Source of the DNA: Cyanobium sp. WAJ14-Wanaka
Lineage (GTDB): Bacteria > Cyanobacteriota > Cyanobacteriia > PCC-6307 > Cyanobiaceae
Assembly (NCBI RefSeq): GCF_024345375.1
Contig: NZ_JAGQAZ010000001.1
Location: 620,001 to 684,000, forward strand
DNA length: 64,000 nucleotides
Reading direction: 5' to 3'
Part shown: positions 21,872 to 37,013 of the stretch, one piece after another
How positions within the stretch are numbered: the stretch's first letter is position 1
Layout of the letters: each line of letters starts with the position of its first letter
The notes under the pieces: generated by a model
The model's database searches: none
What the model saw: the letters and a program-made list of their open reading frames with translations, nothing else
What the model was told of the DNA's origin: nothing
Position numbers and translations under genes: made by a program

Positions 21872-22654
21872 CTAGCTGGCCTTGAGCACCCCAGGCTCCA
21901 CCTGCATCGGCACCACCTCAAGGCTGTCGATGGCCGCGCAGCAGGCGAAATCGGCATCGTGATTACCCAGCCCAATCAGGCGTTGGCCATGGCTGGCGGC
22001 CCGCAGGCAGGCCTCCGGCTGATGGCGCCATTGCTGCCAGAGGGCAAGGGCAGCCAGGGCCTCATCGTTGCCACAAACCACTCCGTTGTCATTGGCAATT
22101 TCGGGTTGGCCAGGGCCTGCCTGCTCCATCAACGCCGAGACCACAGCCCCCGCAGCCAGGCTGTCCTCCAGGGAATAGTCCCCTTCCCAGCCACTGCCGA
22201 CGATCCAAACCCGCTGGGCGGCGGCCGAAATCAAGCGGCGGGCGACGGCGCTGATGTTGGGCAAGCAGGCCGTAAGCAGCAGGGGCACCTGCCTTACGGC
22301 GGCCAAGGAGCGGGTGCCATTGGTGGTGCTCATGAAAATGCGTTTGCCCCGCACCAGCTCCGGCGTCACAGCCAGGGGGGAATTGCCCAGGTCGTAGCCA
22401 GTTACCCGCTGGCCACCCCGCTCACCTGCCCGTAAACAAAGGTCTGCTGGCCAAGCCGCAGCGGCGCTCTCCAATTCGTCCAGGTCTGCGAAGGCCTGGA
22501 TGGCTTCAGCACCGTTTTGAAGCGACCAGGCAATGGTGGTGGTGGCCCGCAGGACGTCGATGACGACAGCTGCATCGGGAGCTTCTGGCCCATTGGCTGC
22601 AGTCGCGGGCTGCGTAGGCACCGCCTCGGAGGTAGGGAAGTAAAAAATTTGCAC
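21872..22654 (-). CDS. comB: Probable 2-phosphosulfolactate phosphatase
   Basis: 260 residues from GTG 22654 ([13 protein letters not shown]). The family signature [25 protein letters not shown] and the conserved [28 protein letters not shown] and [19 protein letters not shown] segments identify the ComB family. In methanogens it dephosphorylates 2-phosphosulfolactate in coenzyme M synthesis; cyanobacteria lack that pathway, so the true substrate here is unclear. The frame extends upstream to 23218, but that part overlaps the divergent ubiD gene and is not coding. Confidence 0.85.
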
Positions 22655-22706
22655 GGGCACATGCTCCACCTGGGTGCGCCACAGTAGGAAGCACCGGTCA
22701 AGCCCG

Positions 22707-24275
22707 ATGCCAGCGACGGCAATCCCCCAACGCAGCCGCCGTGACCTGCGCGGATTCATTGAACTAGTTGAGCAACGCGGCCAGCTGCGCCGCATCACCG
22801 CGCCGGTGGATCCAGACCTGGAGTTGGCGGCCATCGCCGACCGGGTATTGGCGATGGGGGGGCCAGCCCTGCTGTTTGAAAATGTGATCGGCTCCACCAT
22901 GCCCGTGGCAGTGAATCTGCTGGGCACCGTGGAGAGGGTGCTTTGGAGCATGGGTATGGAAACCCCCCTGGAGCTCGAGGCCCTCGGAGAGCGACTGGCC
23001 CTGTTGCAGCAGCCCAAACCCCCTAAAGGGATACGCGAAGCCGCCCGCTTCGGCGGAGTACTTTGGGACCTGATCAAGGCACGACCAGATCGGGACCTGA
23101 TCCCCCCCTGCCAGCAGCAGGTGTTCAAGGGCAACGACGTAGACCTCGATGCCCTGCCCCTACTACGGCCATGGCCAGGGGATGCGGGCAAGGTGATCAC
23201 CCTGGGGCTGGTGATCACAAAGGACCCGGAAACCGGCGTGCCAAATGTGGGGGTCTACAGGCTGCAAAAGCAGTCGATCAACACGATGACCGTTCATTGG
23301 TTGAGCGTGAGGGGCGGCGCCCGCCACCTGCGCAAGGCAGCGGCCCTCGGCAAGCCCCTGGAGATCGCCATCGCCATCGGTGTGCATCCCCTGCTGGTGA
23401 TGGCCGCAGCCACCCCTATTCCGGTGCAACTGAGCGAATGGCTGTTTGCGGGCCTCTATGCCGGAGAGGGGGTTCGACTAGCGAAGTGCAAAACCGTGGA
23501 CCTGGAGGTGCCATCCCACAGCGAGCTGGTGCTCGAAGGCACGATCACCCCCGGCGAAGAGCTGGGTGATGGACCCTGCGGCGACCACATGGGTTTTTAC
23601 GGTGGAGAAGAACTGTCGCCCCTGGTCAGGTTCCAGTGCATCACCCAGCGACGCAACCCGATTTACTTCACCACCTTCAGCGGCAGGCCCCCCAAGGAGG
23701 AGGCCATGCTCGCAATTGCCCTCAACAGGATCTACACGCCAATCCTGCGCCAGCAAATTCCGGAAATCGTCGATTTCTTCCTGCCGATGGAAGGGCTCAG
23801 CTACAAGCTCGGCATCATCGCCATCGATAAGGCCTACCCGGGCCAGGCCAAGCGGGCAGCCATGGCCTTCTGGAGTGCCCTCCCCCAATTCACCTACACA
23901 AAGTTTGTGGTGGTGGTCGACAAACAGATCAACATTCGCGATCCCCGCCAGGTGATCTGGGCAATTAGCGCCCAAGTGGATCCCCAAAGAGATCTTTTTG
24001 TGCTCGAGGACACCCCCTTTGACTCCCTGGATTTCGCCAGCGAGCGGCTGGGCCTGGGCGGGCGATTGGCCATCGATGCCACCACCAAAATCGGACCAGA
24101 AAAACGCCACGATTGGGGCGAAGCGCTCGGCCGGCCGGCGGAGCTAGAGGCTCAGGTGGACAGTCGCTGGGACGAACTGGGGCTCGCCGATTTAGCAGGG
24201 CAGGAACCCGACCCCGCCCTGTTTGGTTACACCCTCGAGCATGTGCTCGAGAGGCTGGCAAAAAGCCGTGCCTAA
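22707..24275 (+). CDS. ubiD: UbiD-family decarboxylase
   Basis: A prenyl-FMN-dependent aromatic acid (de)carboxylase, about 522 residues from ATG 22707. It shows the UbiD fold motifs [53 protein letters not shown], and [16 protein letters not shown]. In cyanobacteria this gene is taken to decarboxylate the 4-hydroxybenzoate-derived plastoquinone precursor, though that role is not proved here. No ubiX is in the window. It diverges from comB with 52 bases between starts, and the Rrf2 gene follows 2 bases after its stop. Confidence 0.9.
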
Positions 24276-24277
24276 CC

Positions 24278-24718
24278 ATGCTCAGCAAAGCTGGTGCCCA
24301 GGCCGTCAAGGCCCTAATTGAACTGGCTGCCAGCCCCCAGCAATGGCGATCCACGGCTGATTTGGCCAGGGCCCAGCAACTACCGGAGCCAATGCTGGAG
24401 CAGGTGCTGCTGAAGCTCCGGCGCTCCGGCCTGCTGCAGGCCCGTCGGGGCCGGCTCGGGGGCTACCGCCTGGCGAGACCAGCCCAGCAGATCTCCATCG
24501 GCCTGGTCCTTGGGGCCGTGGCCCGCCAAGCAGAACCGCTAAATCCTGCTGATGCCTCAGAGATCTCAGCTGCCGATCAGGTGACAAGCAGCCTCGAGCG
24601 CCACCTGGTAATGGCCCAACAAAGGGCCCTGGCCGAACTGACGGTGGAAGACCTCTACTTCGACCTACGCAGTGCCCTGGCGAGCAGACAGGAAGACGGC
24701 GGCCTATTACTGGGATAG
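24278..24718 (+). CDS. Rrf2-family transcriptional regulator lacking cysteines
   Basis: 146 residues from ATG 24278, two bases after the ubiD stop. The N-terminal winged helix reads VKALIELAASPQQWRSTADLA then QVLLKLRRSGLLQARRGRLGGYRLAR, the Rrf2 signature. IscR-type members bind an Fe-S cluster through three cysteines in the middle region; here the whole protein contains no cysteine, so it cannot use that sensor. The target is unknown; the adjoining ubiD gene is a candidate. Confidence 0.85.
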   Translation: MLSKAGAQAVKALIELAASPQQWRSTADLARAQQLPEPMLEQVLLKLRRSGLLQARRGRLGGYRLARPAQQISIGLVLGAVARQAEPLNPADASEISAADQVTSSLERHLVMAQQRALAELTVEDLYFDLRSALASRQEDGGLLLG

Positions 24719-24782
24719 ATCTCCATAGGATCAGTAAATTCGCCCATCCCCATTGGCCCAAGCCCCAGACCAATCGGCCCCC

Positions 24783-26078
24783 ATGTCCCTGCCCGGGGTC
24801 GGCAGCCTGAGGGGCCAGGTGAGGGTGCCGGGTGACAAGTCGATTTCCCATCGGGCCCTGCTGTTTGGGGGCATTGCCGAAGGCACCACCCGAATCGATG
24901 GCCTGCTGCCTGCGGAGGATCCCCTGAGCACGGCCGACTGCCTGAGGGCCATGGGGGTTGGGGTCTCAGCAATTAGGGCCGGTGAAACGGTGGAGGTGCA
25001 GGGGGTTGGCCTAGATGGCTTACTCGAGCCCGGCGACGTCCTTGATTGCGGTAATTCCGGCACCACCATGAGGTTGATGCTGGGTTTGCTGGCCGGACGG
25101 GCAGGCCGCCACTTTGTGCTCACTGGCGACGACTCCCTGCGGGGTCGGCCGATGCGGCGGGTAGGAGCACCCCTGGCGGAGATGGGGGCCCTGATCCACG
25201 GACGCCTGGACGGCAACTTTGCCCCCCTGGCGGTTCAGGGCCGCCAACTGCATGGCCGCACCATCCACACCCCGGTTGCTTCCGCCCAGGTGAAAAGTGC
25301 GATTTTGCTGGCCGCCCTTACGGCCACAGGCGAAACCACGGTGATTGAACCGGCCCAATCCCGGGACCACAGCGAAAGGATGCTGCGGGCCTTTGGCGCC
25401 GACCTGGAGGTAGGTGGAACCAACAGCACCGAGATAACCATCCGTCCTGGGAGCAACCTGCGGGGCCAGGATGTAGTGGTACCGGGTGACATCAGTTCGG
25501 CCGCTTTCTGGCTGGTGGCCGGCGCCATCACGCCAGGAGCGGAGCTGAAGATCGAGAATGTGGGATTGAATCCCAGTCGCACCGGCATCCTTGAGGTTCT
25601 CGAACAGATGGGGGCGCGCATCAGCGTCTTAAACAGCAGGGATGTGGCAGGGGAACCGGTGGGGGATCTGCACGTGGCCCATGGCCCACTACAGGCCTTT
25701 GACATTGGCGGCGAACTAATTCCCCGACTGGTCGATGAGATTCCCGTGCTGGCGGTGGCCGCCTGCTACGCCACAGGGGTTAGCCGGGTTAGGGATGCCG
25801 GCGAGCTGCGGGTCAAGGAAACCGACCGCCTGGCCGTAATGGCTCGCCAACTGGGGGCCATGGGGGCCCAGATCGAGGAATTCGAAGACGGGATGGTGAT
25901 TGTGGGAGGGCAGAAGCTCAAGGGTGCGGAGCTAGATAGCGAGACCGATCACCGGGTCGCCATGAGCTTGGCTGTGGCGTCGCTGGTGGCAGTGGGCGAC
26001 AGCAAATTGCACCGGCCCGAGGCCGCTGCCGTTTCCTATCCAAGCTTCTGGAACGACCTGGCCCGCCTTCGTAACTAA
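24783..26078 (+). CDS. aroA: 3-phosphoshikimate 1-carboxyvinyltransferase (EPSP synthase)
   Basis: Joins PEP to shikimate 3-phosphate in the shikimate pathway. [16 protein letters not shown] at the start, [16 protein letters not shown] (phosphate/PEP-binding) and [20 protein letters not shown] near the end are the two family signatures. 431 residues from ATG 24783; TTG 24753 in the same frame would add ten residues. The Gly of the PEP site is GNSGTTMR with threonine, a pattern of glyphosate-tolerant class II enzymes as I recall, which would need an alignment to confirm. glmU follows 34 bases after the stop. Confidence 0.96.
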
Positions 26079-26112
26079 CCCTTAGATTCCGGCGCAGTCG
26101 CCCCACCCCCTG

Positions 26113-27462
26113 ATGCTCGCCGTTGCCGTGTTGGCCGCCGGGAAAGGCACCCGCATGAAAAGCGACCTGCCCAAGGTGTTGCAACCCCTGGCGGGGGCAA
26201 CCCTGGTGGAGCGCGTGCTCTCCAGTTGCCAGCACCTGGCCCCGGAGAGGCGAATCCTGATCGTTGGTCACCAGGCCGCCAAGGTGGAGCAGTCCTTGGC
26301 GAAGCTGGCCGGGCTGGAGTTTGTGCTGCAACAACCCCAGAACGGCACTGGCCATGCCGTACAACAACTACTTAATCCGCTCCAGGGCTTTGGGGGCGAC
26401 CTATTGGTGCTGAATGGTGATGTGCCACTGCTGCGCCCCGAGACCCTGGAGCAACTGCTTGGCCAGCATCGGAGCTCGGGGGCGGCGGTGACCCTTTTGA
26501 CGGCACGTCTGGAGGATCCCAGTGGCTATGGGAGGGTTTTTGCCAACCAAAATGGGGCAGTTAGCCAGATCATTGAGCACCGCGACTGTTCAGACGAACA
26601 GCGGCTCAACAACCTCACCAATGCGGGTATCTACTGCTTCAACTGGCAAAAACTGGCGGAGGTTTTGCCCCATCTCACCACTGATAACGACCAGGGCGAG
26701 CTCTATCTGACGGACAGCGTCGCCCTGCTCCAACCTGCCATGCACATGGAGGTGGCAGATCCAGATGAGATCAATGGCATCAACGACCGACTGCAACTAA
26801 GCCAATGCGAGGCGGTCTTCCAGGAGCGACTTAAGCGCCATTGGATGGCGGAGGGGGTGAGCTTTGTGGACCCCGCCAGCTGCACCCTCAGCGAGAACTG
26901 CCGGCTTGGCCGTGATGTGGTGATTGAGCCCCAATGCCATTTGCGCGGCTCAACCGTGGTGGGGGATGGCTGCCGAATCGGCCCAGGCACATTCCTGGAA
27001 AACGCCAGCCTGGGAGCCAATGTTTCCGTGCTCTATTCGGTGATTCGCGAGGCGGTGGTGGGGGATAACTGCGCCATTGGTCCCTACGCCCAATTAAGGC
27101 CGGGCACAAAGCTGGAAACCGGTTGCCACATCGGCAATTTTGTGGAGATCAAGAACAGCCAACTTGGCGAGGGGGTGAAGGTGAACCACCTGAGCTACAT
27201 CGGCGATGCGGACCTGGGCGAAAGGGTAAACGTGGGGGCAGGCACAATTACCGCTAACTACGACGGCGTGCAAAAACACCGCACCGTTATTGGCTCAGGC
27301 AGCAAGACCGGGGCCAATTCCGTACTCGTGGCCCCCATAACCCTCGGAAGCAACGTAACGGTGGGAGCCGGATCAACCATCACCAAGGATGTGCCCAGTG
27401 GGGCGTTGGCCCTGGGGCGTTCCAAGCAAGTAATCAAGACCGACTGGCCCGAACCTAGTTAG
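26113..27462 (+). CDS. glmU: Bifunctional N-acetylglucosamine-1-P uridyltransferase / glucosamine-1-P acetyltransferase
   Basis: Makes UDP-GlcNAc for peptidoglycan and lipopolysaccharide. The N-terminal pyrophosphorylase domain (residues about 1-225) opens with [20 protein letters not shown] and has LNGDVPLL. The C-terminal left-handed beta-helix acetyltransferase runs from about 250 with hexapeptide repeats, [21 protein letters not shown] and [11 protein letters not shown]. 449 residues, normal. It ends 8 bases inside the convergent hypothetical gene that follows. Confidence 0.97.
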
Positions 27463-27736
27463 CGGCAGCCAGCAACTCGACGATCCCCGTTAGGGGGATG
27501 CGCTCCATATCTCCGCTGTCGATGTTGAGCACCTGGGCGTATTTAGATATCGGCCCCCTAACGGGGCGGCTTATGTCGCATACCCGACCGATGAACCAGG
27601 GCCTACCCGCCATCGCCACCACAGCCAGGTGGCCGGGCCGGGCATCGTGGAAGCGCTTGGGATTGGCTTGCCGCAGGGTCTCGACTGCGGGATCGATTTG
27701 CCAGGGGGCCACGCAGGTGAAGTACATCTGTATCAT
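27455..27736 (-). CDS. Conserved hypothetical protein beside LexA-like palindrome
   Basis: 93 residues from ATG 27736 ([15 protein letters not shown]); ATG 27727 is a second choice and the frame is open to 27766. The sequence has no membrane segment and I recognise no family. [22 protein letters not shown] followed by [14 protein letters not shown] suggests a small alpha/beta fold. Its start lies 7 bases from the perfect palindrome at 27743-27756, and its 3' end overlaps glmU by 8 bases tail to tail. The last part of the gene contains a 13-base inverted repeat. Confidence 0.6.
27485..27566. repeat. 13-base perfect inverted repeat in 3' part of hypothetical gene
   Basis: CCCCGTTAGGGGG at 27485-27497 and its exact reverse complement CCCCCTAACGGGG at 27554-27566, 56 bases apart. 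Each arm is also a small hairpin by itself. The repeat lies inside the 3' part of the minus-strand hypothetical gene and just past the end of glmU, so it could fold in either transcript as a 3' structure. No T tract follows on the plus strand. Confidence 0.6.
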
Positions 27737-27742
27737 TAGGGT

Positions 27743-27756
27743 AGTACGGTCGTACT
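27743..27756. promoter_or_regulatory. LexA-box-like perfect palindrome
   Basis: AGTACGGTCGTACT: arms AGTAC and GTACT with a 4-base spacer. This has the size and arms of the cyanobacterial SOS box reported as RGTACNNNDGTWCB, differing only at the D position. It lies 7 bases upstream of the minus-strand hypothetical gene and 48 bases upstream of the plus-strand peptide gene that leads into two photolyase-family genes, so it could control both directions. The assignment is inference from the motif. Confidence 0.5.
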
Positions 27757-27803
27757 CCCGGCGCAACCCCGGCGTCTAGGTTGAACCAGTTGAGCCGTTA
27801 ACC

Positions 27804-27917
27804 ATGGAAAGCACTGACTTCAGCGGAGCAATTGCGGGCCTAATTGCCGTCGGCCTGTTGCTCACGGGCGCAGTGGTCTATGTGGTGAGCCGCCCCACCG
27901 ACCTGGGCAAGCGCTAA
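27804..27917 (+). CDS. 37-residue single-pass membrane peptide
   Basis: ATG 27804 to TAA 27917. It starts MESTDFSGAIAGLIAVGL and continues as a hydrophobic helix to about residue 28, ending SRPTDLGKR. The size, the acidic N-terminus and the charged tail resemble the small photosynthetic subunits (Psb, Pet, Psa, Ndh), but it matches none I can name. It lies 48 bases downstream of the palindrome and 8 bases before the cryptochrome gene, so it likely opens that transcript. Confidence 0.6.
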   Translation: MESTDFSGAIAGLIAVGLLLTGAVVYVVSRPTDLGKR

Positions 27918-27925
27918 ATCTGCCC

Positions 27926-29101
27926 ATGGCTGCCCAAAGACCGCTGGTAGTAGTGGATCTTCAGGGCCAGTGGCGCCTCGACGATCAACCCTCCCTGGCC
28001 AGAGCGATGGCAAGCGCCATGGCCATGGCCGAGCTGGGCGACCCTAAGTCGCTTCGCCTGGGAGTTACGGGAGGCCCCAGCCAAGCCCGGCCCCTGCAAG
28101 GGCCCCACCAAAGCAAGCTGACAAAGCAGGCGATTAAAGGCCTTAAGGCGAGGCTGCCATCCCTAGGGATTGAATGGCTTGAGGATCAATCTGAATTGGT
28201 TGCTGGGGTCAGCGAAGTTGGGCGCTGTGGGCCCAACCGGCTCTTCGCAAGCCCGCCAATCCCCCTCGAGAGCTTTCCACGGGTCTTTGCGGACTTTCGC
28301 CGCCAACTAGCGGCCAACGGCCCGGTTGAGGTTGAAGCCCCCATAGGGGGCAATTCGGGAATAGATGCGGCGATCGATGGGGCAAGCCGAAGTGATGGCG
28401 ATAGCCGCAGCTCGTTTCCCTTTGCCGGTGATGAATTAAGCGCCCTAAGGCACCTGCAGCACTTTGTGCACGGCAGTGCGGGCCTCAGGAATTACAAGCA
28501 AACCCGCAACGGCCTGTCAGGGGTGGGGTTTTCATCAAAATTTTCGGTCTGGCTCTCGATCGGCACCCTGTCGGTGCGTCGAATCTGGGCAGAAGTTTTG
28601 AGTTATCAGGCCATAAACGGCGAAGATGAAGGTTCCCAGGCGATGCAACAGGAACTGCTTTGGCGGGAGTTTTTCATCTGGCTGGAGCTCGCCAATCCCA
28701 AAAACTTTGATCAGCTTGGTGGCATCCAAGGGCGCTCCTATGAATACCTTGAGGATCGGGATCTATTTGCCAATTGGTGCCACGGCAACAGTGGCAATCC
28801 ACTAATTGATGCAGCCCTGAAGGAGCTCAATAGCACTGGCTATCTCTCCAATCGCGTGCGCCAATGGGTGGCCTCGGATTTTGTTCATCGGCTGCGACTG
28901 CCATGGCTTTGGGGAGCCCGCTGGTTTGCATGGCAACTAATCGATTCAACTCCAAGCCAAAACATTGGCAATTGGTCCTATTTGGCTGGCGTTGGAGCTG
29001 ACCCCCGCAGCTTTGGCAGCGCCGGTCCAAGGTACTTCGATCTGGAAAAGCAACTTAAAATCTATGATCCCAGAGGCAGTTATCTGAAATTATGGTCCTA
29101 A
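27926..29101 (+). CDS. DASH-type cryptochrome/photolyase with degenerate N-terminal domain
   Basis: 391 residues against about 490 for CRY-DASH. The FAD-binding half (about 165-391) is well kept: NYKQTRNGLSGVGFSSKFS, ELLWREFFIWLEL, PLIDAALKELNSTGYLSNRV, NIGNWSYLAGVGADPRSFG and RYFDLEKQLKIYDPRGSYLK, all typical of the DASH subfamily, which repairs single-stranded pyrimidine dimers or signals. The N-terminal antenna domain is shortened, and the usual opening with a DLR..DN motif is absent (LVVVDLQGQWRLDDQP remains). It overlaps the next photolyase-family gene by 10 bases. Enzymatic activity is uncertain. Confidence 0.85.
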   Translation: MAAQRPLVVVDLQGQWRLDDQPSLARAMASAMAMAELGDPKSLRLGVTGGPSQARPLQGPHQSKLTKQAIKGLKARLPSLGIEWLEDQSELVAGVSEVGRCGPNRLFASPPIPLESFPRVFADFRRQLAANGPVEVEAPIGGNSGIDAAIDGASRSDGDSRSSFPFAGDELSALRHLQHFVHGSAGLRNYKQTRNGLSGVGFSSKFSVWLSIGTLSVRRIWAEVLSYQAINGEDEGSQAMQQELLWREFFIWLELANPKNFDQLGGIQGRSYEYLEDRDLFANWCHGNSGNPLIDAALKELNSTGYLSNRVRQWVASDFVHRLRLPWLWGARWFAWQLIDSTPSQNIGNWSYLAGVGADPRSFGSAGPRYFDLEKQLKIYDPRGSYLKLWS

Positions 29102-30606
29102 CCCTAATTCTCGGCAATCAATTACACCGGGGCTGGCTTTGTGAAGGCCCCCTGTTGCTAAGCAAGGCCGACAGGGTGATCATGGTGGAAGATCTGGCCA
29201 TCGCGAGTCAATTTAGATATCACAAATTACGCCTACTGCACTGCTTTACAGCAATGCGCTGCTTTCGCGATGCCCTAGAAGATGCTGGCATTGAGGTCCA
29301 CTACTTCGAGCTTCAAGACTCAATCAAAACGCCATTCCTTGAGCGGCTCAGCCAAGCATTACTCAATGGCGAGGGTCAAGGCGAGAAAGCATGCCTAAGG
29401 GTTGCTGAAATAGCAGACCCCCCATTTCAAAAGGAGTTGGCAGAATTTTGTCTAAGCAAAGAGATTGATCTAGAGATATTGCCATCGCCAGCATTTTTGA
29501 GCTCTGCTGCAGTAAGCAAGCAGGATTTCAGCGGCAAGAAACGTCCATTTATGAAACGGTTTTATGAACAACAGCGCAAGCGTCTCAACCTGCTTCTAGA
29601 AGCCGATGGCAGCCCGATCGGGGGACGCTGGAGCTTCGACACTGAAAACCGGCTAAAGCTGCCCAAGGGCTACGAAGAACCTGCCCTACCTGCGGTTGCC
29701 CCCAGTCGCCATGAGCAGCCCCTAAGGCAGCTAATCAATGACTATTTTGCAGGCAATCCAGGGGAGCTGGGGGATTTATATGTGCCCTATGACCACAGGG
29801 GGGCTAAAGAGTGGTTAACGGCATTTTTACGGGGAAGATTTAGGGATTTTGGCCCCTATGAAGACTCCCTCAGCCTCCAGCACGACACCCTCCAGCACTC
29901 ATTGCTATCCCCCCTGCTCAATTGCGGCCTTTTAGATCCAGAAGATGTATTAGAAGCAACCCTTGAACATGCCAAAGCTGAGGCCATTCCAATTGCTTCA
30001 TTGGAGGGCTTCCTCAGGCAAATTATTGGATGGCGGGAATTTATACGGGGCATAGACCTGGAGTTTGGCGAACGCCAACGCGAGACAAACTTTTGGAATC
30101 ACCATCGCCAACTGGGCCCATGCTGGAACGATGGCACCACGGGCCTACCACCTTTGGATGCCGCCATAGAAAAGGTTAATCGCCTGGCCTACAACCACCA
30201 CATCGAGCGCCTAATGGTGATCAGCAACCTAATGCTGCTATGTGAAATCCAGCCACGGGCAGTCTACGGATGGTTCATGGAGCGCTACCTGGATTCCTAC
30301 GGCTGGGTGATGGGGCCAAACGTCTATGGAATGGGGCTAATGAGTGATGGCGGCATTTTTGCCACCAAGCCCTATATCTGCGGCTCCAACTACATACTCA
30401 AAATGGGAGGGGCAAAGCGCGGGCCCTGGTGTGAGATCTGGGATGGCCTCTACTGGCGCTTCATCGATCGGCATCGATCCTTTTTTCGATCAAATCCCAG
30501 GCTCTCAATGATGGTGTCGCTGCTCGATCGGATGGAGCCCAGCAAGCGTGATCGGCTCTTCAACCTTGGTGAATCCTTCATCACCAGGGTGACCCTGCCC
30601 CTTTAA
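29092..30606 (+). CDS. Cryptochrome/photolyase-related protein of the FeS-BCP (PhrB) type, lacking most cluster cysteines
   Basis: 504 residues, the length of bacterial (6-4) photolyases of the PhrB/CryB group. Family segments are clear: LTLILGNQLH and VEDLAIASQFRYHKLRL at the N-terminus, then WREFIRGIDL, YNHHIERLMVISNL, NVYGMGLMSDGGIFATKPY and GLYWRFIDRHRSFF in the FAD domain. From memory of PhrB (cysteines 350, 438, 441, 454), only C447 (GPWCEIW) has a counterpart: the first is replaced by proline (TGLPPLDAAI) and the CxxC pair is deleted. It therefore probably folds without the 4Fe-4S cluster. It is coupled to the upstream cryptochrome. Confidence 0.85.
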   Translation: MVLTLILGNQLHRGWLCEGPLLLSKADRVIMVEDLAIASQFRYHKLRLLHCFTAMRCFRDALEDAGIEVHYFELQDSIKTPFLERLSQALLNGEGQGEKACLRVAEIADPPFQKELAEFCLSKEIDLEILPSPAFLSSAAVSKQDFSGKKRPFMKRFYEQQRKRLNLLLEADGSPIGGRWSFDTENRLKLPKGYEEPALPAVAPSRHEQPLRQLINDYFAGNPGELGDLYVPYDHRGAKEWLTAFLRGRFRDFGPYEDSLSLQHDTLQHSLLSPLLNCGLLDPEDVLEATLEHAKAEAIPIASLEGFLRQIIGWREFIRGIDLEFGERQRETNFWNHHRQLGPCWNDGTTGLPPLDAAIEKVNRLAYNHHIERLMVISNLMLLCEIQPRAVYGWFMERYLDSYGWVMGPNVYGMGLMSDGGIFATKPYICGSNYILKMGGAKRGPWCEIWDGLYWRFIDRHRSFFRSNPRLSMMVSLLDRMEPSKRDRLFNLGESFITRVTLPL

Positions 30607-30615
30607 ACGGAAAGA

Positions 30616-30639
30616 CCCCAGGTGAACCACCACCCGGGG
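30616..30639 (+). terminator. Hairpin at the end of the photolyase operon
   Basis: CCCCAGGTG pairs with CACCCGGGG (one mismatch) around loop AACCAC, starting 10 bases after the photolyase stop. There is no T tract, so it is a 3'-end structure rather than a classic terminator. The convergent murF gene ends 55 bases further on. Confidence 0.4.
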
Positions 30640-30694
30640 CCCCTGCCCTAAGACATCAACATCGTGAAATGCCGATCCATTTCCATCATGGCGC

Positions 30695-32101
30695 CTAGGG
30701 GGTAGGCGGGGTTTCCAGCAAATCCCGCAGCAAGGGAATTAATTGCTCAAGGGCAACTCCCCTACTGGCCTTAAGCAGCAGGTGATCTCCGGGCTGCAGC
30801 CAATGGGCGATTTGTTGGGCCGCCTCGCACGGAGAGCCAACTTGGGCCAGCAATGGCAAGCCCTTCGCCGCCTCCAGCATTACCCGGCCCTCTACGCCCG
30901 CATCCACAATCACGAGGCCATCGAGGCCTAAGCAAAGCGCCCGTTCAACCACTTCTCGGTGCAACGACAGGCTCAATTCACCCAGCTCAAGCATCGTTCC
31001 CAGCACGGCGAAACGGCGACCTCCCTGGGATTGGAGCAATTCCAAGGAAGCAAAAACCGCCTCCGGCGAGGCGTTGTAGGTCTCATCGAGAACCTGCACC
31101 CCTCCGATTTCGAGTCGGTGGCTCCTGCCCCCAGGCAAATCCACCCTGATGGGCTGCCATTGGCCAGGCTCCAGGCCCAACTCCTGGGCTACGGCAAGGG
31201 CCAATAGGAGATTTCGGGCATGGTGCCTGCCCTCCAGGGGCAATGGCAAAACCACCCCTTGAATCGCCATGGTGCCGGCATCCGTATCCAGGCAACCAAG
31301 CCAATCGGCTTGCGCCTCAAAGCCCTCCCCAGCAATGGCCACCCGCAGCACCCGGCCGCTCCAGACCGCTGCCAGGGCTCGATCCAAAAGGGGATCACCG
31401 GCAGGAATAACGACAAGCCCATCGGGATCAAGGGCAGTGGTGATTTCACACTTGGCCTGGGCAATTGCCTCGCGGCTGCCCAAGCGACCAATGTGGGCCG
31501 TGCCGATGTTGGTAATTACCGCCACCGAAGGACTGGCGCAGCGGCTTAGGCGCCCGATCTCCCCGGGGCCACGCATGCCCATCTCAACCACCACTGCCCG
31601 TTGCTCGGGGCTGGTGTTTAACAGGGTTAGGGGCACGCCGATGTCGTTGTTTTCATTGCCACTGCTCGCCCCGATCGGGCCAAGGGGAGCTAGGGCAGCA
31701 CGAATCAACTCGCGGGTACTGGTTTTGCCGGCTGAACCCGTAACCGCCACCACGGGCAGAGCTAGTAGTTGCCGCCAAAGTGCCGCCAACTGCTGATAGG
31801 CGGCCAGGCTGTTGCCTACCCACCAAAGACAACAGCCCGCCTGCTGGGCCTGGGCATGCAGTGCTTCGACTTCGGCAGGTTCGAAGCGATCAAGTTGGGC
31901 CAGGCCATGGGCACCGGCGGCCAGGGCCTCGGCCAGGAAGCGATGGCCGTCGAAACGCTCCCCCACCAAGGGTACAAACAGGCCACCAGCAACCACCTGA
32001 CGGCTGTCGGTAGTGATCTCAGAGACAACAGCATCAGCTGCGATTGCGCCAGTGGCAGGCTCACCCCAGAGGTTCACCAGTTGGCTAAGGCGAAGCTCCA
32101 T
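30695..32101 (-). CDS. murF: UDP-N-acetylmuramoyl-tripeptide--D-alanyl-D-alanine ligase
   Basis: Adds D-Ala-D-Ala to the UDP-MurNAc tripeptide, the last cytoplasmic step of peptidoglycan precursor synthesis. ATP-binding VVAVTGSAGKTSTRELIRAA, then SSGNENNDIGVPLTLL, VEMGMRGPGEIGRL and ITNIGTAHIGRLGSREAIA, followed by the C-terminal domain LDETYNASPEAVFASLELL. 468 residues. Its ATG overlaps the stop of the upstream hypothetical gene by one base (TGATG), so the two are probably coupled. Confidence 0.96.
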   Translation of the reverse strand: MELRLSQLVNLWGEPATGAIAADAVVSEITTDSRQVVAGGLFVPLVGERFDGHRFLAEALAAGAHGLAQLDRFEPAEVEALHAQAQQAGCCLWWVGNSLAAYQQLAALWRQLLALPVVAVTGSAGKTSTRELIRAALAPLGPIGASSGNENNDIGVPLTLLNTSPEQRAVVVEMGMRGPGEIGRLSRCASPSVAVITNIGTAHIGRLGSREAIAQAKCEITTALDPDGLVVIPAGDPLLDRALAAVWSGRVLRVAIAGEGFEAQADWLGCLDTDAGTMAIQGVVLPLPLEGRHHARNLLLALAVAQELGLEPGQWQPIRVDLPGGRSHRLEIGGVQVLDETYNASPEAVFASLELLQSQGGRRFAVLGTMLELGELSLSLHREVVERALCLGLDGLVIVDAGVEGRVMLEAAKGLPLLAQVGSPCEAAQQIAHWLQPGDHLLLKASRGVALEQLIPLLRDLLETPPTP

Positions 32102-32796
32102 CAGGAGAGATGCTGGGGTGAAAGCAGGATCATGCCGGAACCAACAAGGGCCTGCCGACCAATGGTTCTGCCCTGTAAATCCACAATCTCAAGTCGGTCA
32201 AAGCCCAGTTGCTGGGCCCGCTCGAGCCACTGCCGGGCCAGGTCCCCCTGCTGCCTGGCAGTGGCCGTGGTGAAGGCTGCTGCCACGCCCAAGCTCAATA
32301 CCGAACCATCCCCCTCGGCCGTAGCCAAAACGATCATGCCCTTGGGATCCTGCTCTGCAAAAAGGGTGAGCAGCGGTTCAGGGGCCTCTGTTGCCAGGGC
32401 TGAAGGCTGGGGCGCTGCCGTGGGTTGGGGATCTGGCTTGGACTGAAGTTCTGGCTCGGGTTGAATTTCCTGCACAGGCTGGGCTTCCGGCACAGGCTGG
32501 GGGCCAGTAGCAGAAGAAGCGGCCCGGGGCAAACCACCGGCCAACGCCAGCACCAGAACCAGTCCTAAGGCCAAAAGGCCCAGCAATAGGCCAGGCCAAA
32601 AGAGCGGGGCCAAATCCCGGGGCCAAAAGCTTGGGGAGGGGAGGTCGCCTTCCCGGTTACGCCGCCAGAGGGCCCGCAACTGGAGGCGCAAACTGGCGAA
32701 GACCGCGACGAGATCCCCCGCCAGCCGGCCCCAGGGGTTTTCATAGGGCACCGGCAGGGGCGGGCCGCCGACCTGGGAGGAGTTAGGCGGGATCAC
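32101..32796 (-). CDS. Membrane-anchored hypothetical protein with Pro/Glu-rich linker
   Basis: 231 residues. A basic cytoplasmic part (LQLRALWRRNREGD) precedes one membrane helix at about 66-90 (LLLGLLALGLVLVLALAGG). A linker of PEP/QP/EPE repeats covers about 95-140, and a C-terminal alpha/beta domain of 85 residues follows (LATAEGDGSVLSLGVAAAFT, WLERAQQLGFDRLEIVDLQG). No family is recognised with certainty. It is coupled to murF and begins 9 bases after the glgA stop, so it belongs to a glgA-hyp-murF run. Confidence 0.7.
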   Translation of the reverse strand: MIPPNSSQVGGPPLPVPYENPWGRLAGDLVAVFASLRLQLRALWRRNREGDLPSPSFWPRDLAPLFWPGLLLGLLALGLVLVLALAGGLPRAASSATGPQPVPEAQPVQEIQPEPELQSKPDPQPTAAPQPSALATEAPEPLLTLFAEQDPKGMIVLATAEGDGSVLSLGVAAAFTTATARQQGDLARQWLERAQQLGFDRLEIVDLQGRTIGRQALVGSGMILLSPQHLS

Positions 32797-32805
32797 CTAC
32801 TGGGC

Positions 32806-34278
32806 TTAGCGGCGCTTAAGCAGGGAAGCAAGCCCCCTGCGGCTCGGATCGGCATCCTGGCCCTGGGAAAAGCGCTCCACAGCGGAGGCCTCGGGGGTGG
32901 GTTCCTTAACCCCACAGACATCGCGATACATCTCGTCGTAGGCAAGGGCGGAACGGGCCCAGCTGAAATCCACTCCCATGGCTCGCCGTTGCAGCTCCTG
33001 CCAACTGTCCTGGTTGCGATAGGCCTCCCAGGAGCGCACGATTGCTGTGTAGAAATCGATCGGCTCGTAGCGGTCGAAGCCGTAACCGGTGCCCGTTGCC
33101 TCCAGGGGATCGTTGGGCGGCACCGTATCCACCAAACCACCCACCATCCGCACCACGGGGATGGAGCCGTAGCGCATGGCCAGCATCTGGCTAATGCCAC
33201 AGGGCTCAAAACGACTCGGCATCAAAAAGGCATCACTGCCCGCATAGATCAACCGCGACAGGGCATCGTCGTAGGTGAGGAAAACGGCAAAGCGACCGGG
33301 ATAGCGGGCCGCCATCTGCCAAAGGGCGGACTCGAGGGAACGGTCGCCGGTGCCCAGCACCACAAACTGACTGTCGGTGTAGGCCAGCACTCGATCAGCC
33401 ACCTGCAGTACCAGGTCAACACCCTTCTGGTCCACCAAACGGCTGACCAGGCCCATCAGGTAGGTGCGGGGGTTGACCGTGAGGCCAAAACGCTCCTGCA
33501 GGGCCCGTTTGCTTTTGGCCCTGGGGGCGAGGTTCTTGGCGCTAAAGGCGGCTGGCAGGGCCGGATCCGTTTCCGGATTCCAATCGACCGTGTCGATGCC
33601 ATTGAGAATGCCCCGCAACTTGCCACTGACAAAATTGAGCAGGCCATCGAGGTGCTCTCCGTATTCGGGAGTGCGAATCTCCATCGAATAGGTGGGAGAC
33701 ACCGCATTAACTCGATCGGCGTAGAGCAGGGCCGTTGCCATGGTGTGATCCCCTTGCATGTACCAGGGGCACCAGGTAATTCGATCCAGCTTCCAGCGCC
33801 AAGGGCCCTGGTATTTGAGGTTGTGGATAGTGAAAACCGTGCTTATTTCTGGGTCCTGGTGCATCCAGACGGGCAACATCCCCGTGTGCCAATCGTGGCA
33901 ATGCAAAACCTGGGGTTTCCAGTGGTGCCAACAGAACTCGGCCGTTGCGCTGGCAAAGAAGGTAAAGCGCCAATCCTCATCTTCACCGCCATAGATCCTC
34001 TCTGGATCAAAGACGGGATGGCCCACCAAGTAGATCGGCAAGCCATTGGTGGGATGGCTGGTCTCGTAGACGGCAAAGTCGTTGCCCATGGTGTGGCCGC
34101 GCCAAACCGGCTCCTGGGGCACCTTCAGAAGGGCCCACAACTTGCCGTATCCCGGCAGAATGATTCGCACGTCGTGGCCAAGGGCCTTGAGGGCCGGCGG
34201 CAGGGAACCCACCACATCCCCCATGCCTCCCACCTTGATCATCGGCGCGCATTCGGCGGCCGCAAACAAGACGCGCAT
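32806..34278 (-). CDS. glgA: Glycogen synthase (ADP-glucose type, GT5)
   Basis: Extends glycogen chains from ADP-glucose. The N-terminal [22 protein letters not shown] holds the ADP-glucose site (KVGGM in place of KTGGL). [39 protein letters not shown] and the C-terminal [19 protein letters not shown] complete the GT-B fold. 490 residues, as in cyanobacterial GlgA1. menB lies 59 bases upstream in the same direction. Confidence 0.96.
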
Positions 34279-34337
34279 CAGCGTGGCTCAAGATTCGGCA
34301 CCAACTCTACGGGCGCTGCCAAAAGCGACCTGGCACC

Positions 34338-35201
34338 TCAGGGAAGCCAGTCGTTTTCAGAAAAGTCCGGGTTCCTTTTTTCTAAAAAGGCATTGCGCCC
34401 TTCCTGGCCCTCTGCGGTTCGGTAGAAGAGATGGGTGGCCTGGCCCGCAAGCTCCTGCAGACCGGCCATGCCATCGGTTTCGGCATTAAAGGCAGCCTTC
34501 AGGCAACGGATCGCCGTGGGGCTGTGCTGCAAAACCTCCCGGGCCCAGCGAACCCCCTCCATCTCTAGCTCTTCCAGGGGCACAACCGCATTAACCAGGC
34601 CCATATCCAGAGCCTGGGCAGCGCCATATTGACGGCATAGGAACCAAATCTCCCTTGCCTTGCGCTGGCCCACCACCCGGGCCAGGTAACTGGCGCCAAA
34701 GCCCCCGTCAAAGCTGCCCACCCGGGGGCCGGTTTGGCCAAAAACAGCGTTTTCAGCAGCCAGGCTCAAATCGCACAGGAGATGAAGCACCTGGCCGCCA
34801 CCGATGGCGTAGCCGGCGACCAGGGCAATAACCACCTTGGGCAGGCTGCGAATCAGGCGCTGCAGGTCCAAAACATTTAGGCGGGGCAGCCCGTCCTCAC
34901 CGATGTAACCGCCATCACCGCGGACGCTCTGGTCGCCGCCGGAGCAGAAAGCCCAACCGCCATCGGCGGCGGGTCCGGCTCCGGTCAACAGCACCACCCC
35001 CACCGCAGGGTTATCGCGCACCCGTGAAAAGGCATCGCAGAGCTCCTGCACCGTGCGGGGGCGAAAGGCGTTGCGCTTGTGGGGCCGGTTGATCGTGATG
35101 CGGGCAATGCCATCACCACTAAGGTCAAAAAGTATGTCCTCGTAATGGATCGGCCCATCGATACAGGCCGCCTGCCAGGTCACGGAGGGATGGGCGGCCA
35201 T
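34338..35201 (-). CDS. menB: 1,4-dihydroxy-2-naphthoyl-CoA synthase
   Basis: A crotonase-fold enzyme that closes the second ring in phylloquinone (vitamin K1) synthesis, needed for photosystem I. The motifs [76 protein letters not shown] and the C-terminal [16 protein letters not shown] identify MenB rather than other crotonases. 287 residues. It starts 9 bases after the menD stop. Confidence 0.96.
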
Positions 35202-35210
35202 GCCGGTCGA

Positions 35211-37013
35211 TCAGGTTGTCTGGCACATTTTGCGCAATTGCTGGCGCAGCAGGGCGTCGCTGCGGCGATCGGTGCCCAGCTCAAGTAGGGCCAGCGGTTG
35301 GCCTAGGGCCCACTCCAAATCGGCCGGCAGGTTTATGGCTTGCCGGCAGCGGCGACCCGGCACCCCATAGGCGGCAGCCAGGGCCAGGGGAACCACCTGC
35401 TGGGGCATGGCAAATAGCCGTTCAAAATCCATGGCCTGGCCCGGTTCAGGCCGAATGGGCAGCTGCTCAAAAATGCCGCCGCCGTTGTTATTGAGCAGCA
35501 CCACCGTTAGTCGGCCTGCCAATTGCTGGCGCCAGAGCCAGCCATGGCTGTCGTGCAGGAGGGCCAGGTCGCCAGTAACCAGTACGGCGCTGCCGAGGGC
35601 ATCGGCCACTCCACAGGCCAGGGAAAGGGTGCCATCAATGCCTGAGGCGCCGCGAAAAGCGAAAACTTGGCGGGCTGGGGCCGCTGGATCCGAAAAGCTC
35701 TCCCAATCCCTCACCGGGCTGCTGTTCGCCAAAACCAAGGGAACCCCCGCCGGCAACAACTGGCTCAACTGGCGGGCAAGGGCCGGTTCATTGAGGCCGC
35801 TGCCAGAGAGGGCTTGGCCTAGCTGCAGCTGAAGCCGTTGCTCCCGCTGCTGCCAAAGGGCTGCCTGGGCGGTGCAAGTTTCAGAGGCGGGCTGGCTCCA
35901 GAGGGCTTCCGGCAGCTGATCCAGCCAGGCCTCCAATCCCATCGAAGTTTGCACACAATCACCGCCAAGGGGATTGAGGTTCCGTGGATCGCCCTGGCTA
36001 ACCAAAACCTGGTGGCCCTGGATCTGCTCCAACCAGCGCTGCAGACGGCGACTGGCGGGCAAGGGGCCCAACCTGAGCACCTGGCAGGTTTCAAGGGGGG
36101 CTCCAGCGGCTTCGAGCAAAAGGTCGTAGCCATTGATCTGGCCCAGGCCCGGCAGGCCCCTAAGGCCACTGAGAAAATCAGCCAACAGGGGCCAGCCCGT
36201 GCGCTTGTGCCAACGGCGCAGGCCAACTTCAAAACCCTGCCATTGGCCGGGCATGCCGCGCCAGGGGCCAGCCACCACCACCCCGGGGCGATCGGGATCC
36301 AGGCCCGCCAGGCCAGGGGGAATGGGCGAGGAAATGCCTTGCGCAGGAAGGGGCCCGGTTGTTGCCGCAGGGCCTGCAGCACTGGCTAGGCCAGGGGCAG
36401 TCAAGACGCCAAAGGCCTCCGCCAACAACACCCCGCCACTGGCATGGAGGGGCTCGGCAAAGGCCAGGTTGAGGTGGACCGGCCCGGGGGCAGCAAGAGA
36501 TGGTGTCTGTTGACCAGCAATGCCAAGGGAATAGGCCATGGCCCGCTGGGCCAACTCCCTGATCTGATCTGGCTCAGCTGCAGCCAGGCCCTCCGGGGGC
36601 GAACAGCCCAGCCAGCGCACATTGGCGGCCAGGAACATTTCCTGATTGACCGTCTGGTTGGCACCGCATCCCTTCAGACCAACTGGACGATCAGCCGTTA
36701 GCAAAAGCAGGGGAATAGCCCCGTAGTCGGCCTCCACCACGGCCGGCAACAAATTGGCTACAGCAGTGCCGGAGGTGGTGATCACCGCCGCTGGCCTGCC
36801 CTGGGCCCGGCTCCAGCCCAGGCCAAAAAAAGCAGCTGAGCGCTCATCGAGGGCCGTGCGTAGCGCCAAGCCCTGGGGTTCCAGCAGGCCCGCCGCCACG
36901 GCCAAGGGCCCGGAGCGGCTGCCCGGACAAACCACCACCAGGGCCAGACCCTGGTCCATCAGGGTCCGAAGCAGGACCAAGCACGCCCTGAGATTGCGTT
37001 GGGCTAGCTCCAA
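35211..37013 (-). CDS. menD: 2-succinyl-5-enolpyruvyl-6-hydroxy-3-cyclohexene-1-carboxylate synthase
   Basis: A thiamine-diphosphate enzyme joining isochorismate and 2-oxoglutarate in phylloquinone synthesis. NLRACLVLLRTLMDQGLAL and VVCPGSRSGPLAVAAG open the protein; TTSGTAVANLLPAVVEADY holds the PYR domain; VTGDLALLHDSHG with VVLLNNNGGGIFEQLP is the cofactor-binding PP domain. 600 residues, slightly long, with internal Gly/Pro/Ala-rich stretches. TTG 37013 is the start because TGA lies 8 codons upstream and the family N-terminus begins there. lepB diverges 16 bases away. Confidence 0.95.
   Translation of the reverse strand: MELAQRNLRACLVLLRTLMDQGLALVVVCPGSRSGPLAVAAGLLEPQGLALRTALDERSAAFFGLGWSRAQGRPAAVITTSGTAVANLLPAVVEADYGAIPLLLLTADRPVGLKGCGANQTVNQEMFLAANVRWLGCSPPEGLAAAEPDQIRELAQRAMAYSLGIAGQQTPSLAAPGPVHLNLAFAEPLHASGGVLLAEAFGVLTAPGLASAAGPAATTGPLPAQGISSPIPPGLAGLDPDRPGVVVAGPWRGMPGQWQGFEVGLRRWHKRTGWPLLADFLSGLRGLPGLGQINGYDLLLEAAGAPLETCQVLRLGPLPASRRLQRWLEQIQGHQVLVSQGDPRNLNPLGGDCVQTSMGLEAWLDQLPEALWSQPASETCTAQAALWQQREQRLQLQLGQALSGSGLNEPALARQLSQLLPAGVPLVLANSSPVRDWESFSDPAAPARQVFAFRGASGIDGTLSLACGVADALGSAVLVTGDLALLHDSHGWLWRQQLAGRLTVVLLNNNGGGIFEQLPIRPEPGQAMDFERLFAMPQQVVPLALAAAYGVPGRRCRQAINLPADLEWALGQPLALLELGTDRRSDALLRQQLRKMCQTT

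Follow-up and report, generated by a model that had tools for sequence, protein, structure and literature searches.

The window, a stretch of 64,000 nucleotides from Cyanobium sp. WAJ14-Wanaka (contig NZ_JAGQAZ010000001.1, positions 620,001 to 684,000), hosts an intact photolyase gene whose product resembles PhrB over most of its length, but lacks the four-cysteine site which holds the [4Fe-4S] cluster in PhrB. The gene plausibly encodes a cluster-free prokaryotic (6-4) photolyase with a PhrB-like mechanism, acquired while the native Fe-S gene was lost. On the basis of sequence comparisons, a fold model, trees and gene order, this reading is given a probability of about 0.82. Proteins of the cluster-free type are real, well conserved and known from earlier work. 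What is new is local, namely the exchange of an Fe-S for a cluster-free photolyase within a single genus, and evidence for separate origins of the two cyanobacterial cluster-free types.

Pfam domains DPRP (residues 5-227, 168.6 bits) and FAD_binding_7 (residues 314-402, 33.6 bits) both score above cut-off. The solved proteins 8ijy, PhrB (4dja), 9hnk, CryB (3zxs) and V. cholerae 7ykn align over most of the sequence (E 2e-76 to 5e-63; 4e-73 for PhrB). A structure model was built with AlphaFold from 43 sequences, the window photolyase and 42 relatives, two of the 45 tried first (L146, which has a stop codon in the range, and L132) having been left out. Its mean predicted local distance difference test (pLDDT) score is 93.4. 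Ten listed entries of prokaryotic (6-4) photolyases match the model in VIA-align with Z of 42.8-44.3 and deviations of 2.0-2.4 A over 483-496 residues (4dja: 43.7, 2.2 A, 493 residues), against a best Z of 27.5 for other photolyases, and Foldseek agrees on prokaryotic (6-4) photolyases as the best fold matches. The fold is common, over almost the whole length, to PhrB of A. fabrum, CryB of R. sphaeroides, SePhrB (8ijy) and Cc(6-4)PL (9hnk). These four carry the cysteines and the cluster, whereas the window protein has a proline, a shortened loop and an invariant tryptophan. The family matches in the PDB copies searched are presumably all Fe-S forms, judging from printed alignments and titles, and among them no structure of a cluster-free form seems to have been solved.

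In the alignment to PhrB the first cluster cysteine (Cys1, C350) is replaced by P354, the CxxC pair (C438 and C441) falls in a deleted loop, and the last ligand (Cys4, C454) corresponds to E448, one column past C447. The larger MAFFT alignment places C447 itself in the C454 column. The protein does not carry the four cysteines coordinating a [4Fe-4S] cluster which define FeS-BCPs, and may be expected to contain no iron. The pattern is shared by many proteins. In a set of 207 (the window protein, PhrB and 205 loci) all four cysteines are present in 54, and the site is missing in 153; the ratio is not a frequency, since a cluster-free profile was used in the search and many SAR11 and Prochlorococcus proteins are near copies. 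CxxC is missing in all 153 cluster-free proteins, and the Cys1 column holds proline in 152 and isoleucine in one. No intermediate between the two forms was found among the 207 proteins, and three added loci fit either class, L260 being cluster-free, L261 and L262 having the four cysteines. The all-or-none pattern indicates that the absence of the site in the window protein is not due to chance. After thinning by identity to 97 rows, cluster-free proteins display a signature around the vanished site: P354 in 68 of 69 rows, against cysteine in 28/28 Fe-S rows, W446 in all 69, and D451 in 67, where Fe-S rows have Asn (22/28) or Thr (6/28). We infer from this conservation that the shortened loop, with its near-invariant residues P354, W446 and D451, may take the structural place of the cluster.

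An earlier, sequence-only reading of the window had assigned the protein to the PhrB/CryB family over 504 residues and had noticed that the first cluster cysteine is a proline and that CxxC is deleted with its loop; domain matches, PDB sequence matches and fold comparison, as well as the alignments, bear this out. It also took C447 as the sole cluster cysteine left. The site is otherwise gone indeed, but C447 falls on the Cys4 column in some alignments only, and is not a conserved ligand, being Cys in 49 of the 69 thinned cluster-free rows and Gln, Val, Glu or other residues elsewhere. Similarly, the cluster-free variant it proposed is of a cluster-free type, but not a new one, as the kind is known as PromaPL, Phr2 or subgroup M.

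Labels of the two forms switch only once along the tree of the 97 rows (support 100). The same holds for a second, unrooted tree of 71 rows, from which the cluster columns had been removed along with two long branches (L187, L195) and additional near copies, and where one branch (100/100) divides Fe-S from cluster-free proteins. The window photolyase lies inside the cluster-free clade, which also holds the protein of Prochlorococcus marinus MIT 9201. A single unrooted branch cannot tell gain from loss, and the cluster-free state could be ancestral, the cluster having been gained by the Fe-S clade, in which case "loss" would be the wrong word. Such a polarity is unlikely. The primase subunit PriL has a cluster at the corresponding position of the shared fold, according to sections of PMC3204975 and PMC4619345, and PMC9426592 reports four cysteines in Phr4 and Phr6; both favour an ancestral cluster. 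The cluster was not lost from the genus's own gene, as the first reading implied: the window gene belongs to a cluster-free clade spanning multiple phyla, and was seemingly acquired.

The window clade includes six rows of the 71-row tree, whose genomes all belong to a single family; close relatives include Synechococcus sp. BSA11S, isolated in name from the Black Sea. It is joined (99/97) by a protein from a proteobacterial metagenome-assembled genome (MAG; L077, 60% identity), then by L078 and L080. Proteins of Prochlorococcus and marine-type genomes are placed apart, beside a verrucomicrobial MAG (100/98). Forcing both cyanobacterial cluster-free groups into one clade is rejected by the approximately unbiased (AU) test (p 4.16e-72, log-likelihood lower by 225), so that picocyanobacteria appear to have acquired the cluster-free form at least twice. 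Genomes were labelled "picocyanobacteria" and "marine-type" on the grounds of their place in the tree, their gene order and relatives with known names. PromaPL of Prochlorococcus marinus, Phr2 of marine Synechococcus and subgroup M share with the window protein the DPRP and FAD domains, the absence of the four-cysteine site, the proline at Cys1, the deleted loop and the signature. However, the marine type is about 39-47% identical to it and forms a separate clade, and the two do not group as direct orthologs within picocyanobacteria.

Gene order points to a replacement. Loci are named here after genes which we take, from their sequences, to be uvrC, hemJ, glmU, murF and aroA. Of 19 wide loci in the order, 15, among them those of all seven congeners examined there, have the Fe-S gene flanked by uvrC and hemJ. 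In the genome of the window the matches to uvrC and hemJ are 333 nt apart; this genome retains the beginning of hemJ and the stretch found after uvrC in congeners, and the photolyase is gone. In turn, no photolyase gene was found in the glmU-murF interval, where the window gene lies, in 9/9 congeners and 2/2 genomes of other genera. Homology to all nine congeners picks up at 30606-30610, 0-4 nt past the photolyase stop codon, and GC content is 0.49-0.54 over 28500-30500 against 0.57-0.66 in the rest of 22000-36000. The window photolyase is 31-33% identical to Fe-S proteins of congeners, while its identity to cluster-free proteins from other genera is 63-68%. The event is a replacement, not a loss in place, and its simplest reading is the gain of a foreign gene pair along with the loss of the native gene. 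In marine-type genomes, by contrast, a PromaPL-type gene sits at uvrC-hemJ in 8 of 12 loci inspected, but not in L049 and in three of Prochlorococcus type (L053, L144, L155). The eight (L050-L052, L054, L207, L208, L212 and L213) carry it in the very slot where other genera have the Fe-S gene, and there the change is an exchange in place.

The distribution of the two forms was monitored in 200 genomes of the order by matches to the DPRP profile, and the figures that follow hold among the matches listed. Matches occur in 173 genomes. In 102 of these the type was checked on the cysteines (35 Fe-S, 67 cluster-free), and all 102 agree with a gap in bit score (at least 206.9 against at most 187.5). 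Totals are 37 Fe-S genomes and 136 counted as cluster-free; for roughly half of these 136 the assignment is based on score alone. A single match was found in 169 of the 173, the window genome included; matches split within one gene occur in G155, G067 and G157, the last two being Prochlorococcus-like cluster-free, while G058 has a partial second copy of the window type (61%). Complete copies of both forms were not found together in any of the 200 genomes. Four genera are mixed, with Fe-S to cluster-free numbers of 9/1 (the genus of the window, g1), 4/18 (g8), 6/1 (g14) and 1/7 (g17). The split gene of G155 (L265, G155:C109) is of Fe-S type, and has a frame of 664 aa, longer than usual.

Residues of PhrB implicated in (6-4) repair, as discussed in parts of PMC4619345, PMC3204975, PMC9178010 and PMC12082625, are largely retained. 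H366, Q306, M410 and Y424 correspond to H370, Q310, M414 and Y428, D179 and D254 to D183 and D258, and W390 to W394, while E403 is M407; the catalytic His, Gln, Met, Tyr and two Asp of PhrB are thus all found in the window protein. The changed function suggested by the first reading is not supported, as the alignment to PhrB shows the repair residues to be kept. By homology to PhrB, blue light would be absorbed by flavin adenine dinucleotide (FAD), directly or by way of a pigment that serves as antenna in the DPRP domain. Reduced FAD would then pass an electron to the (6-4) photoproduct, held by Y428 and by the Mg2+ site of D183/D258, H370 would donate a proton, and the bond would be reversed. 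The [4Fe-4S] cluster would not be needed for this step. The gene would have reached its present place in an ancestor which lost the native Fe-S gene at uvrC-hemJ and gained a foreign cluster-free gene, along with a DASH-like partner, at glmU-murF.

Several points weigh against this account. The nearest non-cyanobacterial relative, L077 (60%), comes from a MAG and could be mis-binned. Outside the 102 genomes with checked cysteines, the type was mostly assigned by bit score, and one such assignment (G155) proved wrong on check; by similarity G155 is Fe-S (58% to L056), as is G135. The electron chain of PhrB is kept in part only, W342 being N346 and Y391 being F395. Finally, PMC9426592 argues, in the part available, that the cluster-free Phr2 of picocyanobacteria is likely a cyclobutane pyrimidine dimer (CPD) photolyase. 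The last point and the incomplete aromatic chain would suit a role other than (6-4) repair, that of an enzyme repairing CPDs or of a cryptochrome-like sensor. Yet Fe-S proteins of the same order have Phe at Y391 (35/35) and Met at E403 (35/35) and miss W342 (34/35), so that N346, F395 and M407 are not tied to the loss of the cluster. According to a section of PMC3204975, Asn takes the place of the catalytic histidine in class I CPD photolyases; the window protein has H370 at this (6-4)-specific position, and keeps Q310 and M414. It stands in one-for-one for an Fe-S photolyase, in a genome which keeps two further full-length photolyase-family genes (L002, L003), and a passage of PMC9178010 places PromaPL, from the same cluster-free clade, among prokaryotic 6-4 photolyases. 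A CPD photolyase or a sensor is therefore held to be rather improbable.

It is far less probable that other cysteines, namely C344, C384, C430 and C447, still hold a cluster in place. C344 is kept in 14/14 near relatives, C447 in 20/20 near and marine-type relatives, and C384 in 17/20. However, C430 is Cys in seven of the 14 near relatives and in none of six marine-type ones, C344 is found in one of these six, and the variability of C447 was noted above. C384, for its part, is Cys in 11 of the 14 near relatives. No four cysteines are conserved together, and an alternative four-cysteine site was rejected. The first reading had named C384 and C430 as possible occupants of ligand positions; neither occupies one, and in 35/35 Fe-S relatives neither is Cys (34 Ala and one Ser at C384, 35 Ala at C430). 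That the native Fe-S gene degenerated and moved to glmU-murF, as might be thought because each of the nine congeners searched has exactly one DPRP gene among the matches listed, is practically untenable, being refuted by the identities given above and by the position of the window protein inside the cluster-free clade.

Directly upstream, and overlapping the start of the photolyase gene by 10 nt, lies an ORF encoding a DASH-like protein. It shares the FAD domain with the cryDASH of Synechocystis (1np7), aligned over residues 158-390, but its N-terminal part has diverged and the C-terminal tail is missing, near relatives being at most about 20 residues longer. The second Asp of the LIDYD motif of cryDASH is replaced in the ORF and in 21/21 complete near relatives. 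A model of the protein from three sequences reached pLDDT 40.2 and was not used. Of the 33 photolyases sharing 60% identity or more with that of the window, 21 are immediately preceded by the DASH-like gene in the same orientation, with a gap of -10 to 35 nt, and L226 has a broken remnant. At E <= 1e-50 the DASH-like gene occurs in 24/200 genomes of the order, including that of the window; all 24 have a window-type photolyase, and in two (G169, G125) the gene sits elsewhere. At the same threshold it was found in 0/37 Fe-S genomes. Two MAGs (L083, L115) have a cluster-free gene and a distant DASH-like gene as convergently oriented neighbours. Photolyase and truncated flavoprotein may form one unit, the partner providing electrons, an antenna or a substrate hand-off unneeded by the Fe-S enzyme, but this is a doubtful conjecture; co-inheritance alone could explain the pair. 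A section of PMC9239080 reports a photolyase-related FAD-domain protein adjoining an FeS-BCP gene in a lake Nitrospira, probably through horizontal transfer, and this counts against the novelty of the pair.

Absence of the cluster cysteines is documented in the excerpts available of earlier work. PMC4619345 (2015) reports them missing in 7% of 464 members, PMC9178010 describes a subgroup M, including PromaPL, without the four cysteines, and PMC9426592 divides Phr2 into two subclades, only one with four cysteines, suggesting CPD repair for the other. The portions seen of PMC9649867 and PMC9498864 hold nothing counter to the findings. No description of the gene swap or of two acquisitions was found among the papers listed on PromaPL, FeS-BCP, cluster loss, short photolyase-like proteins and horizontal photolyase transfer in picocyanobacteria, as judged by titles and the start of abstracts.

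Cluster-free genes were also found in named strains of Hymenobacter, Dyadobacter and Mucilaginibacter and in pond MAGs. Persicobacter sp. JZB09 (Bacteroidota; source listed as soil) carries one (L188) on a 1.58 Mb plasmid. Among 11 candidate stretches on viral contigs two relatives were confirmed, both cluster-free: L187, on an 83-kb contig, is divergent (36% identity, long branch), and L186, on a 6-kb contig, groups near SAR11-type sequences. Carriage by phages as the main route was rejected, with no match in 50,697 phage records.

Features of the segment are listed in Table 1. Two ORFs sit between glmU and the gene pair, one of 103 aa at 27455-27766 (-), the other of 37 aa at 27804-27917 (+; MESTDFSGAI...). 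Neither was found in the glmU-murF interval of congeners, and they are possibly part of the acquired segment. A promoter and terminator scan gave scores near shuffle level.

Table 1. Positions in the window of the photolyase gene, its partner and the flanking genes.
Feature	Position	Strand	Basis
Putative cluster-free prokaryotic (6-4) photolyase (Phr2 / subgroup M type), 504 aa	29092..30606	+	homology, domains, alignment, tree, model
Codon of P354, column of cluster Cys1 (PhrB C350)	30151..30153	+	PhrB alignment
Codon of H370, counterpart of catalytic PhrB H366	30199..30201	+	PhrB alignment; role from a part of PMC4619345
Codons 442-449 (KRGPWCEI), shortened segment at the place of CxxC...C in Fe-S forms	30415..30438	+	alignments
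DASH-like protein with FAD domain, 391 aa; last residues ...YLKLWS, usual C-terminal tail missing	27926..29101	+	domain and homology matches
Segment missing from the glmU-murF interval of 9/9 congeners, extent approximate	27463..30609	.	left edge not located
glmU (presumed), left flank of the acquired segment	26113..27462	+	name given from sequence
murF (presumed), right flank of the acquired segment	30695..32101	-	name given from sequence

The loss of the cluster has reportedly been ascribed, in work on PromaPL, to the scarcity of iron in the sea. Species of Hymenobacter, Dyadobacter and Mucilaginibacter live on land or in fresh water. The occurrence of cluster-free genes in these genera, in pond MAGs and on the Persicobacter plasmid makes marine iron scarcity alone a poor general explanation. 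Should photolyase and DASH-like protein indeed work as one unit, the swap would trade an iron-dependent single enzyme for an iron-free pair. According to a passage of PMC12082625 (2025), what the cluster contributes to prokaryotic (6-4) photolyases is unclear or elusive. It cannot simply be taken out, since PhrB with mutated cysteines failed to express or was insoluble, as stated in a part of PMC4619345. A genus in which the Fe-S gene has been replaced in one species would offer a matched pair, provided by nature, on which the function of the cluster can be tested.

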